This document shows, one piece after another, positions 8,333 through 20,179 of a stretch of 20,341 bases of DNA (position 1 is the first letter of the stretch; the number at the start of each line of letters is the position of its first letter). The stretch is from a virus. Below the pieces are notes generated by a model. That model ran no database searches, was not told the origin of the DNA, and worked only from the letters and a program-made list of their open reading frames with translations. The translations under genes and the position numbers were made by a program. The DNA lies in the IMG/VR virus record IMGVR_UViG_3300034375_005223, positions 1 to 20,341 of that record; one strand, written 5' to 3'.

Positions 8333-9103
8333 ATGATTGACCTGAGGACTGGTAACTGTATTGAGTTGGCAAAGGGTCTTGAAGATAATTCTATTGACTG
8401 TACTGTCACCTCCCCTCCCTACAACAAGTGTGGTGTAGGTGGTGGTTTGTTTCGTAAAATTGAATATGCTGCTTTTGATGATACTCTGCCTGAGGATGAG
8501 TACCAGGAGCAACAAATTGAATTGCTGAATACTCTATTTGATAAAACCAAAGAGGGTGGATCGCTGTTCTACAATCACAAAGTTAGGTACTTCAAGGGTG
8601 ATGCTATTTCACCTTGGGAATGGTTGACTAAAACCAAGTGGAATATCAGGGAAGAGATTATCTGGAATCGTGGAAGTGGTCCTGAGATTTCTGGTTACAG
8701 ATTCATCCAAACTGATGAAAGAATCTATTGGTTGTGTAAGGGAATAAAGCATCCACGTCTCCCAAGGCGTTGTGCTGAGTGGACTAGTGTCTGGAAGTTT
8801 GGTCCTGAGATGAAGAATCCTCACCCTGCTCCCTATCCTATTCAACTGCCTACTAGGTGTATTCAAGCAGTGATGCAGGGTCCTGGTGTTGTTCTTGATC
8901 CTTACAGTGGATCTGGAACTACTGGTCTTGCTGCTAAACTGTTGGGTCATGACTATATTGGTTTTGATCTCTCTGATGAGTATCATGACATGGCAAGGAA
9001 GAGGATTGCTGAACCATCCAAGAGTGATCTGAAGAAGTTCAGTGATGAAACTGGTCTTGCTCCTGAAACTGATAATGATGTGTTCAGTTTGGCAGACTCA
9101 TAA
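8333..9103 (+). CDS. DNA methyltransferase, beta class (N6-adenine or N4-cytosine)
   Basis: This site-specific DNA methyltransferase (256 aa) uses S-adenosylmethionine. Catalytic motif IV is TSPPY (26-30), which comes before the cofactor-binding motif I DPYSGSGTT (189-197); that order defines the beta class. HPAPYPIQLPTR (164-175) is the usual motif X region before motif I. TSPPY is compatible with N4-cytosine or N6-adenine methylation, so the base and recognition site cannot be fixed. There is no restriction enzyme gene beside it, so it is an orphan enzyme, likely protecting phage DNA or altering expression. It has its own sigma70-type promoter and almost no Shine-Dalgarno. Confidence 0.9.
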   Translation: MIDLRTGNCIELAKGLEDNSIDCTVTSPPYNKCGVGGGLFRKIEYAAFDDTLPEDEYQEQQIELLNTLFDKTKEGGSLFYNHKVRYFKGDAISPWEWLTKTKWNIREEIIWNRGSGPEISGYRFIQTDERIYWLCKGIKHPRLPRRCAEWTSVWKFGPEMKNPHPAPYPIQLPTRCIQAVMQGPGVVLDPYSGSGTTGLAAKLLGHDYIGFDLSDEYHDMARKRIAEPSKSDLKKFSDETGLAPETDNDVFSLADS

Positions 9104-9106
9104 ATA
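9099..9106 (+). promoter_or_regulatory. Late promoter variant
   Basis: CATAAATA overlaps the methyltransferase stop, 25 nt before the next ATG. It differs from the T4 octamer only in the first base; NATAAATA is the form I recall for T4-like cyanophages. Confidence 0.55.
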
Positions 9107-9130
9107 TTGTATGAGGAAAAGTTATAACTG

Positions 9131-10420
9131 ATGAAATCATTTTTTAGTTTCCTTAGAGAAGCAAGAACATCTCAGGCATCAGATCAGGCAGCACGCCTTA
9201 ATCTGACTGGTGATGGTCATGGTAACTGGTACGATAAGGATGGTGCTAGAGTTGCTGTAACCAAGGGCGGTAGACTTGAGATGCTGTCAAAGAAAGAAAA
9301 ACAGCAGACTGATGACACAGCAACTCAACAATCAACAAAAGAACCTGAACAACAACTCCAACAACAGGGACAGTTTGGAGCATTTGCAGATGGAACTCCA
9401 AGGAGAATGCCTCAACCTACGAGAGCAGATGGGTCTCCTAAAGAGGATCTTGGACCTCTGACTGTAACCTTTGGTAGGTTTAATCCCCCAACAGTAGGAC
9501 ATAAAAAACTTTTAGATGCTGCTAAGAAAGCAGCAGGTAAAGGATCTCTCAGAATTTATCCCTCAAGATCACAGGATGCTAAAAAGAATCCTTATGATGC
9601 TGATGAAAAGGTGGGTGTGATGCAGCAAATGTTCCCTGATCATGCAGAGAACATTGTTAATGATCCTAATGCCAAGACCATTTTTGACGTTCTGAAGCAG
9701 GCACACCAAGATGGATATTCAAGTGTTAAAATTGTGGTTGGTGGTGACAGAGTTAAGGAATTTGAAAAACTCTCAGGAGATTATAATGGTCAACTCTATG
9801 ATTTTTCTGGTGTGGAGACTGTATCTGCTGGAGAAAGAGACCCCGACTCTGAGGGTGTAGAGGGAATGTCTGCTTCCAAGATGAGAAAAGCAGCAGCAGA
9901 TAATGATTTCAAGTCATTCAGACAAGGTATCCCTAATAATATTGATGATAAAACTGCTAAGCAGATGATGAATAATCTTCGTAAGAAGATGAAAGTTACT
10001 ACTAAAGAAAGTTGGAATCTGTGGGAGATTGCTCCAAAGTTTGATTGGAAGAACCTGAGAGAGAATTATGTGACTGGAAAGATCTTTAAGGTTGATCAAC
10101 TAGTTGAGAATCTCAATACAGGTTTGATTGGTAAAGTTATCAGAAGAGGGACTAACTATCTTATCTGTGTAACTGAAGACAATATCATGTTCAAGTCTTG
10201 GATTAGAGATCTGCGTGAATATAGTGAAGTTAAGATGAATAGAAAGAATAGAGCTCCTGGTAAACCAAATACATTGGTTGGAACAGCAGGTTATTTTAAA
10301 AATGCTGCTGCTATTACACCTGGATTTGAGGAAGGTGATGATACTAACCTTCAACCTGGTGCCAAACCATACAAAGGATATGGTAGGGAATTCATAAATA
10401 AATATAAGAAAAAAAAGTAA
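9131..10420 (+). CDS. Nucleotidyltransferase-like protein with possible capsid-targeting N-terminus
   Basis: This 429-residue protein combines several parts. The N-terminus, MKSFFSFLREA, resembles the T4 internal-protein capsid-targeting peptide (MKTYQEFIAEA), and LRE|A fits the gp21 protease cleavage rule (L/I-x-E before A/G/S). Residues 27-52 form a Gly/Tyr-rich segment (GDGHGNWYDKDG), followed by a Gln-rich linker (58-100). Residues 108-260 form a HIGH-type nucleotidyltransferase domain: GRFNPPTVGH (115-124) and GMSASKMR (245-252) match the two nucleotide-binding motifs of the NMN-adenylyltransferase/cytidylyltransferase superfamily. Residues 312-365 (with GLIGKVIRRGTNYLI, 331-345) look like a KOW-like beta domain. 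The tail is Lys-rich. Substrate is unknown. A late promoter box precedes it, supporting a particle-associated enzyme. Confidence 0.85.
   Translation: MKSFFSFLREARTSQASDQAARLNLTGDGHGNWYDKDGARVAVTKGGRLEMLSKKEKQQTDDTATQQSTKEPEQQLQQQGQFGAFADGTPRRMPQPTRADGSPKEDLGPLTVTFGRFNPPTVGHKKLLDAAKKAAGKGSLRIYPSRSQDAKKNPYDADEKVGVMQQMFPDHAENIVNDPNAKTIFDVLKQAHQDGYSSVKIVVGGDRVKEFEKLSGDYNGQLYDFSGVETVSAGERDPDSEGVEGMSASKMRKAAADNDFKSFRQGIPNNIDDKTAKQMMNNLRKKMKVTTKESWNLWEIAPKFDWKNLRENYVTGKIFKVDQLVENLNTGLIGKVIRRGTNYLICVTEDNIMFKSWIRDLREYSEVKMNRKNRAPGKPNTLVGTAGYFKNAAAITPGFEEGDDTNLQPGAKPYKGYGREFINKYKKKK
10393..10400 (+). promoter_or_regulatory. Late promoter variant
   Basis: CATAAATA lies within the last codons of the nucleotidyltransferase-like gene, 30 nt before the next ATG. 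The match and spacing are the same type as at 9099. Confidence 0.45.
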
Positions 10421-10429
10421 TCTAGTGTC

Positions 10430-11365
10430 ATGATCTCTGAACAAGAAAATACACCAGAAGAGGTGAAAAGTAGGGTCACTCAGATGACCAAAGCAATCAG
10501 ATATAAAGCAAGAAAGGAAGGTGGTAATCTTTTCAAGGCTTTTAATGATTATATGGGATCTCAGTCTGGTATCAGTTCATCTGAACGTCAGTTAGTCAAG
10601 CAAAAACTTGGTTTGTCTGAAAGATATTCTTCTTGGAGAGATGAACTTGAACTTCGTGAAGTAGTTGATGTTCCTTCATCAGGGGCAAAGACTGATAAGG
10701 AAATGGAAAAGACTATCAAAGAAAAGAAAGTCAATAATAAAATTGTAATCAATCCTACAATGCAGGAAGCATTTGATGAGATTGGTGGCACTATTCTTGA
10801 AGTAGTTGAAATTGAAGAAGGTTATAAAGAGATAGACAAGAAGAAGGAAACAGCAATGTATCGTCGTGCTGGAAACCTGGCACGTACTTCTTTGTCTTCA
10901 AAAGGCAAAAAGAAAGAGGATGCTCAAAACAAGTCAGCAAAGATTGTTTCTGCCATCTCCAGACAGAAAGAGAATGAGAGATTCTCTAAGATGGCAGATG
11001 AGAAGGCACGTGACAATTATAATGAAGAATCTGAAAATGATGATATGAAGAAAAAGCAACTTCAGCATCAAACACAAATGCTGAAGAAGCAACAGATGCT
11101 TGATCGCCAGAGACTTCAGATGATGAAGCAAGGCAAACTTCCTACAGGTCATATGGAAGAAGTTGAGCAGATTGATGAGAAAGTTCTTGACAGAGCAGAG
11201 AAGGGTGAGAAGGAAAGAATTGTTAAAGGTATGAAGAAGAAGTTTAGCAGCTTCAAGGATAGATATGGTAAGGATGCTAAGTCTGTAATGTATGCTACTG
11301 CCACTAAGATGGCAAAGGATAATATGGACACCAGCAAATCTGATCGTAGATATGGTGTTGAGTGA
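10430..11365 (+). CDS. Late-block hypothetical protein with coiled coil, 311 aa
   Basis: This highly charged, helical protein is probably head- or scaffold-associated, inferred from position and composition. Residues 205-236 form a Lys/Gln/Met-rich stretch likely to be a coiled coil. The C-terminal part, KGMKKKFSSFKDRYGKDAKS followed by VMYATATKMA (266-295), resembles a short motif that recurs, as I recall, in several marine T4-like phage proteins. A further motif, MQEAFDEIGG (111-120), is of unknown meaning. The ATG at 10430 has no clear ribosome site. No enzyme motif is seen. Confidence 0.8.
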   Translation: MISEQENTPEEVKSRVTQMTKAIRYKARKEGGNLFKAFNDYMGSQSGISSSERQLVKQKLGLSERYSSWRDELELREVVDVPSSGAKTDKEMEKTIKEKKVNNKIVINPTMQEAFDEIGGTILEVVEIEEGYKEIDKKKETAMYRRAGNLARTSLSSKGKKKEDAQNKSAKIVSAISRQKENERFSKMADEKARDNYNEESENDDMKKKQLQHQTQMLKKQQMLDRQRLQMMKQGKLPTGHMEEVEQIDEKVLDRAEKGEKERIVKGMKKKFSSFKDRYGKDAKSVMYATATKMAKDNMDTSKSDRRYGVE

Positions 11366-18111: not shown

Positions 18112-18582
18112 TTGGAAAAAGGTGAAGAACATCTTGAATATCCCAATCCCTGGACCTATTGTGGCAGGGTGTTTGACGGGAGCCTTATTGGGGACAACTA
18201 CGGCTTTGTTTACCTTATTACCTGTAAGGTCACCCAGAGAAAATATATCGGTAGAAAGTATTTCTGGCAAAAACGAAAGCCTAGATCTACAAATCAAACT
18301 AAAAAGCGGAGAAGAGTTACGTCTGAAAGCAACTGGCGTGACTACTATGGATCTAGTCCAGAGCTTAAAGAGGATGTTGCAAAGTATGGACGGGACTCTT
18401 TTACTAGAGAAATCCTATCCCTCCACAAAACTGTAGGCAAATGTAACTTTGAAGAGACCCGTCAACTCTTTCTAAATAATGTACTTACAGAGAGATTGAC
18501 AGAAGGGATCCCTGCCTACTACAATAGCAACATCCTGGGTCGTTACTATCGTAAGGATTATTTTGAGTCACCCATGCCTTGA
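18112..18582 (+). CDS. GIY-YIG family endonuclease
   Basis: This DNA endonuclease-like protein (156 aa) has the GIY-YIG fold signature: GFVYLI (31-36) and KYIGRKYF (44-51), then a basic stretch (KKRRR), and FEETR (113-117), where E114 or E115 may be the catalytic metal ligand. Such small nucleases in T4-like phages are either homing (Seg-like) or non-homing enzymes; no DNA-binding repeats are seen, so it may be a non-homing form. The frame has no ATG: a TAA at 18106 leaves TTG 18112 as the first usable start, with GTG 18169 as a later one that would still keep GFVYLI. No clear ribosome site is seen. Confidence 0.8.
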   Translation: MEKGEEHLEYPNPWTYCGRVFDGSLIGDNYGFVYLITCKVTQRKYIGRKYFWQKRKPRSTNQTKKRRRVTSESNWRDYYGSSPELKEDVAKYGRDSFTREILSLHKTVGKCNFEETRQLFLNNVLTERLTEGIPAYYNSNILGRYYRKDYFESPMP

Positions 18583-19617: not shown

Positions 19618-19691
19618 GACTCAATAGCTCAGCTGGATAGAGCAACTGCCTTCTAAGCAGTCGGTCGTAGGTTCGAATCCTACTTGAGTCG
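19618..19691 (+). tRNA. tRNA-Arg (UCU)
   Basis: The acceptor stem GACTCAA pairs with TTGAGTC (19684-19690); a D-arm GCTC/GAGC and a T-arm with GGTTCGAATCC are present. The anticodon loop gives TCT, reading AGA/AGG, the favoured Arg codons of this phage DNA. No CCA is encoded. Confidence 0.95.
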
Positions 19692-19712
19692 TTGAATACT
19701 TATTGTATTCAA
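19692..19712 (+). repeat. Hairpin in the Arg-Thr tRNA spacer
   Basis: TTGAATAC (19692-19699) pairs perfectly with GTATTCAA (19705-19712) around TTATT. It fills nearly the whole spacer. There is no T-run, so it is not an evident terminator; a processing or protective role is possible. Confidence 0.8.
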
Positions 19713-19715
19713 GTT

Positions 19716-19792
19716 GCCAAATTAGCTCAGTTGGATAGAGCAGTGCTTTTGTAAAGCAAAGGTCGTCAGTTCAAGTCTGTCATTTGGCTCCA
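19716..19792 (+). tRNA. tRNA-Thr (UGU), CCA encoded
   Basis: The acceptor GCCAAAT pairs with ATTTGGC (19782-19788); anticodon TGT sits in loop TTTGTAA; the top pair of the anticodon stem is a G-A mismatch. The discriminator T is followed by an encoded CCA (19790-19792), and the next tRNA begins at once. Confidence 0.93.
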
Positions 19793-19865
19793 GGGGAATT
19801 AGCTCAGTTGGTAGAGCACCTGCTTTGCAAGCAGGCTGTCAGGAGTTCGAGTCTCCTATTCTCCA
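19793..19865 (+). tRNA. tRNA-Ala (UGC)
   Basis: The acceptor GGGGAAT pairs with ATTCTCC (one G-T pair); the anticodon loop TTTGCAA gives TGC. It starts directly after the CCA of tRNA-Thr, with no spacer. No CCA follows its own discriminator A. Confidence 0.95.
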
Positions 19866-19866
19866 T

Positions 19867-19902
19867 GGGGTTAGTACACCTCCACCCACCAGTACTAACC
19901 CC
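19867..19902 (+). repeat. Perfect 11-bp hairpin in the Ala-Gly tRNA spacer
   Basis: GGGGTTAGTAC (19867-19877) pairs perfectly with GTACTAACCCC (19892-19902). The 14-nt loop, ACCTCCACCCACCA, contains ACCTCC, the anti-Shine-Dalgarno core of 16S rRNA. There is no T-run after it. It may be a processing structure or a small structured RNA. Confidence 0.85.
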
Positions 19903-19906
19903 TCCT

Positions 19907-19978
19907 GCGGAATTAGTTCAGTGGTAGAACGTCAGCCTTCCAAGCTGAATGTCAGGGGTTCGAATCCCCTATTCCGCT
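19907..19978 (+). tRNA. tRNA-Gly (UCC)
   Basis: The acceptor GCGGAAT pairs with ATTCCGC (19971-19977); the anticodon stem TCAGC/GCTGA carries loop CTTCCAA, giving TCC. The T-arm has GGGGTTCGAATCCCC. No CCA is encoded. Confidence 0.95.
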
Positions 19979-19997
19979 TGAGACTTAAATAGTCTCA
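19979..19997 (+). repeat. Hairpin in the Gly-Asn tRNA spacer
   Basis: TGAGACT (19979-19985) pairs perfectly with AGTCTCA (19991-19997) around TAAAT. This is the third spacer of the cluster with a perfect stem. Confidence 0.75.
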
Positions 19998-20006
19998 CAT
20001 ACACAA

Positions 20007-20078
20007 TGGCGTGTAGCTCAATGGCAGAGCAGGGAGCTGTTAACTCTCTGGTTGCAAGTTCGAGTCTTGCCACGCCAG
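20007..20078 (+). tRNA. tRNA-Asn (GUU)
   Basis: The acceptor TGGCGTG pairs with CACGCCA (20071-20077); D-arm GCTC/GAGC; anticodon loop CTGTTAA gives GTT; the T-arm GCAAGTTCGAGTCTTGC is complete. Discriminator G. Confidence 0.93.
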
Positions 20079-20082
20079 CCTT

Positions 20083-20154
20083 GCCCAAATAGCTCAGCGG
20101 TAGAGCACCTCCTTTACACGGAGATTGTCGGGGGTTCGATCCCCTCTTTGGGCA
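20083..20154 (+). tRNA. tRNA-Val (UAC)
   Basis: The acceptor GCCCAAA pairs with TTTGGGC (20147-20153); anticodon loop TTTACAC gives TAC; the T-arm GGGGTTCGATCCCC is clear. It is the last tRNA of the cluster, 25 nt before the next gene. Confidence 0.93.
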
Positions 20155-20179
20155 TTCCTATAAGGAGGACCATGTTCCA

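Follow-up and report, generated by a model that had tools for sequence, protein, structure and literature searches.

A conserved T4-like capsid-targeting leader on the cyanophage T4-GC190 enzyme, a predicted adenylyltransferase

INTRODUCTION

The internal proteins of phage T4 provide the closest described parallel to the protein family considered here. Both have an N-terminal leader of 10–11 residues with an aromatic residue at position 4, F at 7, L or I at 8 and E at 10, and both are associated with the virion. In T4 IPIII, targeting depends on residues 4 and 7, and processing on residues 8 and 10 (PMC9026906). The two differ in their cargo, which in T4 is a small variable internal protein and in the present family is a conserved enzyme, whose leader cleavage and head location are presumptive.

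A second related system is T4-GC190, a group of cyanophage proteins named cytidyltransferases. T4-GC190 was detected by mass spectrometry (MS) in S-SM1 particles by Sullivan et al. and went undetected in S-PM2 virions (PMC3037559); the enzyme's association with virions and its possible part in NAD metabolism have both been published (PMC3037559, PMC9602691, PMC10665884). The published accounts of T4-GC190 consulted here do not mention a capsid-targeting sequence (CTS), and no description of a CTS in cyanophages or marine phages came up in the open-access literature that we searched. Of the features described here, the shared targeting tag is the one for which we found no earlier description there.

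The third comparison is with NadD, NadM and CoaD. These have in common with our enzyme motifs of the GxFxPx[HT]xGH and SxSxxR types and the HIGH-superfamily fold, in our case a predicted one. They differ from it in that the first HxGH histidine is usually T in our family, which also has extra N- and C-terminal regions. Here we describe a member of this family encoded in a 20,341-nucleotide stretch of viral DNA (IMGVR_UViG_3300034375_005223, positions 1 to 20,341), referred to below as the window.

RESULTS

The enzyme gene and its late promoter box

The gene (9131..10420, plus strand) runs from an ATG start to a TAA stop and encodes 429 aa. The product matched PHROG 395 (E = 2.6e-105) and, as a HIGH-superfamily nucleotidyltransferase, PF01467 (CTP_transf_like; E = 3e-9, 37.5 bits against a gathering score of 21). 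Homologues were present in 528 phage records, of which 461 are cyanophages by organism name. BLASTP against S-SM1 SSM1_190, which is tagged 'T4-LIKE GC: 190' in its record, gave 45% over 387 columns (E = 4e-106), that is, full-length homology to the T4-GC190 family. Judged by sequence, the window enzyme is the cyanophage core gene T4-GC190.

The late promoter box reported by the first-pass annotation was borne out. A T4-type box, CATAAATA (9100..9107, plus strand), lies 31 nt upstream of the ATG, and [ACT]TAAATA boxes were found upstream of 74% of 121 homologues compared with 11% in shuffles, mostly 27–31 nt before the ATG.

A leader that keeps the T4 targeting positions

The first 11 residues, MKSFFSFLREA (9131..9163, plus strand), had been likened to the T4 capsid-targeting peptide MKTYQEFIAEA, which is a 100% match to an annotated T4 internal head protein. 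The two are identical at 5/11 positions and similar at 8/11, and the window leader has the aromatic residue at 4 with F at 7, and the L/I (here L) at 8 with E at 10. The enzyme had the highest T4-leader score (22; runner-up 16) of the window's 26 likely genes, and a relaxed CTS pattern matched once among 442 possible starts. In an alignment of 43 relatives, M1, F7 and E10 were invariant, K2 and F4 were kept in 42/43 and A11 in 41/43, whilst residue 8 was L, F, I or V and residues 3, 5, 6 and 9 were variable. Since the mapped CTS positions are kept and the residues between them vary, the resemblance goes beyond chance, and the original likening holds. The further suggestion that LRE|A fits the head-protease rule also stands at the sequence level, with the predicted cut after E10.

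Tagged orthologues in virions

Four orthologues of the window gene that carry a similar leader have been detected by MS in virions. Besides SSM1_190, whose MKKFSAFLNEA is the only strong CTS-like start that we found in the S-SM1 genome, these are the S-SCSM1 NMNAT (PMC9602691), which has the N-terminus MKSFLQFLKEA and shares 51.5% identity with the window enzyme; S-SZBM1_140 (PMC9146016), which starts MRFRQFIIEA and was detected with a low peptide count of 2; and S-CREM2 gp154 (PMC10665884), which starts MKNFSSFLTEA, also with a low count, 3. All four detections were in purified virions. When the S-PM2 record was searched, the enzyme domain was found fused to a DUF6267 protein, with an N-terminus that lacks the tag. 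The missing detection in S-PM2 virions is consistent with this tagless start; it is weak evidence because that S-PM2 dataset also lacked seven T4 structural homologues.

The S-CREM2 and S-SCSM1 authors left co-purification open (PMC10665884, PMC9602691), and the peptide counts are low, as would be expected if an abundant late cytoplasmic enzyme adhered to the particles and its CTS-like N-terminus had another role. We regard this as quite improbable: the tag keeps exactly the T4 CTS positions, detection was repeated in four phages in separate studies, and tagged proteins are enriched among the S-CREM2 virion proteins, as set out below. Capsid loading of the window enzyme, which had been proposed from its sequence, is well supported by the conserved CTS positions together with the four tagged orthologues in virions.

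The tag on other phage proteins

In S-CREM2, 5/6 carriers of a strict CTS pattern were virion-detected, compared with 47/213 other proteins (Fisher P = 0.003). For this pattern, an earlier P1' requirement had been dropped once the S-CRM01 N-termini had been inspected, at a point when the S-CREM2 proteins were still untranslated; the version with that requirement would retain only gp154 in S-CREM2, and a looser pattern gave P = 0.059 for the association. Tagged proteins without A/S/G after the glutamate were gp6 (EF), gp13 (EQ) and gp14 (EE). In a regex-free ranking gp154 came top and five of the six highest-scoring proteins were virion proteins, with the cut at six chosen after ranking. The T4-CTS scores of all non-structural S-CREM2 virion proteins taken together gave a non-significant result (Mann-Whitney P = 0.29); the tag is therefore found only on a subset of virion proteins. 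A matching site, LLTE|A, is present at residue 56 of the S-CREM2 major capsid protein.

When IMG/VR was scanned for the motif, at least 120 matches were obtained; at least 110 of them lay at the start of an ORF no shorter than 60 aa, and at least 76 were on the window-type enzyme. Complete scans with two permuted motifs gave 38 and 16 matches, of which 12 and 9 started ORFs of this size, and several of these ORFs were again the window-type enzyme or DUF6267. The first-pass annotation had proposed searching related phages for the same N-terminus on other proteins, and such carriers exist: among the matches listed, they were similar to DUF6267, GNAT and M78-like proteins, with HNH- and HAD-like calls made by eye. 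S-TIM5, which was reported with a virion kinase, had neither a window-type enzyme gene nor a match to the CTS pattern.

The sequence behind the tag is also shared. An N-terminal module around LTGDGHGNWYDKDG (residues 12–57; 9164..9301, plus strand) was delimited by alignment conservation and by a PHROG 3561 match to residues 2–65, and it likewise follows the tag in cyanophage virion proteins of kinase and HNH-like type (S-CREM2 gp12 and gp14; S-H34 and S-B68 homologues). S-CREM2 gp12 (L096:8498-11107) is annotated as Cas9 and had no Pfam match at E 0.1; inspection by eye shows the tag-like sequence LRFASFMAEAA at residues 17–27, the LGLVSDGHG module and a stretch resembling HNH. A GNAT-like acetyltransferase of S-CRM01 (L118:1501-1893) starts MKTFDEFLTEG, with a PF13508 match below the cut-off (E = 7e-5). 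A second small tagged family of about 105 aa (MKSFNQFLSEAVNIAGDFNGNLYINS) occurs in several cyanophages (L130:1501-1815, L113, L255 and L256).

A predicted ATP-type adenylyltransferase fold

The HIGH-type domain noted in the initial annotation was confirmed by the PF01467 match and by its motifs, GRFNPPTVGH at residues 115–124 and GMSASKMR at residues 245–252. Modelling of the full-length structure gave poor results outside this domain (mean pLDDT 67.8), and a separate AlphaFold2 model was therefore made for residues 105–290 (9443..10000, plus strand; pLDDT 93, pTM 0.88). Compared with the PDB by fold, the domain model matched NadD and PPAT best, and all 50 matches listed were NadD/NMNAT/NadM or PPAT adenylyltransferases, with no cytidylyltransferase among them. 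Matches to NadD, NadM and CoaD had 12–19% identity and a TM of about 0.5–0.7. Sequence searches of the PDB gave no match with the single window protein as the phmmer query and weak matches with a profile, including 2qjo at E = 0.34. We predict from the model that the domain has an ATP-type adenylyltransferase fold of the NadD/NadM/CoaD kind.

The earlier guess of NMN-adenylyl- or cytidylyltransferase-like chemistry, for which a structural comparison to NadM/NadR had been proposed, was right in part: the fold is predicted to be that of an adenylyltransferase and not of a cytidylyltransferase, but the scores stayed under every NAD-specific family cut-off. The enzyme scored 20.2 bits against 112.45 for NadD (TIGR00482), at most 14.7 against 354–403 for the NadD/NadM PRK05379 models, and 18.1 against 103.3 for CoaD (TIGR01510); PADLOC gave no match. 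Because the NadD, NadM and CoaD equivalog scores are far under their cut-offs, NMN or NaMN is put forward only as the leading candidate acceptor.

A sugar- or polyol-phosphate nucleotidyltransferase of the CTP type is suggested by the database name of PF01467, cytidyltransferase, and by a jumbo-phage survey in which NMP transfer to phosphosugars was proposed for some phage HIGH nucleotidyltransferases (PMC7824862). The domain fold, with its uniformly adenylyltransferase matches, speaks against this name and makes such chemistry distinctly unlikely. So does SASKMR, which is similar to the ATP-type second motif.

Packaged effector or head component

The most conserved part of the window enzyme is residues 291–365, within a C-terminal region (10010..10417, plus strand) that was defined by alignment conservation and by stand-alone counterparts, being a separate 91-aa protein in S-PM2 and S-CAM3. 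The neighbouring gene (10430..11365, plus strand) is a homologue of S-SM1 SSM1_191 (BLASTP 73% over 71 aa, E = 3e-24), and its product has several [LIV]xE sites and is possibly a virion or core protein. An enzyme-adjoining gene was virion-detected in S-SCSM1 and S-SZBM1; orthology of the S-SZBM1 neighbour to 10430–11365 was unsupported, the similarity being non-significant (E = 0.067). The best-conserved C-terminal region and the virion or LxE-rich neighbours would suit an enzyme that is packaged chiefly to serve in building the head, for instance as part of the core, with its nucleotidyltransferase activity secondary and no role as an injected effector. This seems unlikely to us, as the catalytic positions are kept across 67 divergent sequences, and tagless stand-alone versions in S-CAM3, MED4-213 and jumbo phages imply a domain function that is independent of the tag.

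The reading that we favour, and hold to be probable, is of a late-expressed HIGH-superfamily adenylyltransferase that is loaded into the prohead by a T4-type CTS. The leader would bind the scaffold core during head assembly, and a gp21-type prohead protease would probably cut at E10|A11. The mature enzyme would remain inside the head in low copy number and most likely enter the cyanobacterium alongside the DNA, there using ATP to adenylylate a small acceptor. If this is true, conserved enzymes of abundant ocean viruses join the small internal proteins as carriers of the T4 head-loading tag, and protein injection by cyanophages becomes directly testable. A sequence rule would then also be available for distinguishing genuine head cargo from co-purified contaminants in the virion proteomes of cyanophages; two of the proteome papers openly state this ambiguity.

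DUF6267 and adjoining genes

A DUF6267 protein adjoins, or is fused to, the window-type enzyme in S-SM1, Syn9, S-CAM3, MED4-213, S-PM2 and S-SZBM1. At two related loci (L219 and L308), the enzyme and DUF6267 genes both have CTS-like starts; at a third (L151), the called ORF begins upstream of the tag, which rests on an internal ATG. Conserved KxDG, EGxV and KxV columns are the sole grounds on which DUF6267 may be called ligase-like, and its profile gave no ligase match in the PDB. One could speculate, with considerable doubt, that in marine T4-like phages a single targeting code loads and injects a set of enzymes (the adenylyltransferase, a DUF6267 ligase- or capping-like partner, kinases, HNH-like proteins and others), and that the adenylyltransferase and DUF6267 would be paired in chemistry on nucleic-acid ends or linked to NAD at the start of infection.

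In the window, the gene directly upstream of the enzyme (8333–9103) encodes an N6/N4-type DNA methyltransferase (PF01555, E = 4e-31), a place where several relatives have a DUF6267 gene; among 80 related loci, a methyltransferase by a crude test was indicated at 23, and 12 matched a test for KxDGxP. Elsewhere in the window, a family B DNA polymerase is split across two overlapping ORFs, with the exonuclease and part of the polymerase domain in 94–1557 and the remainder in 1557–2723. Near the window end are a SegE-type GIY-YIG putative endonuclease (18112–18582; PF19835, E = 3e-49) and six consecutive tRNA genes for Arg, Thr, Ala, Gly, Asn and Val (19618–20155).
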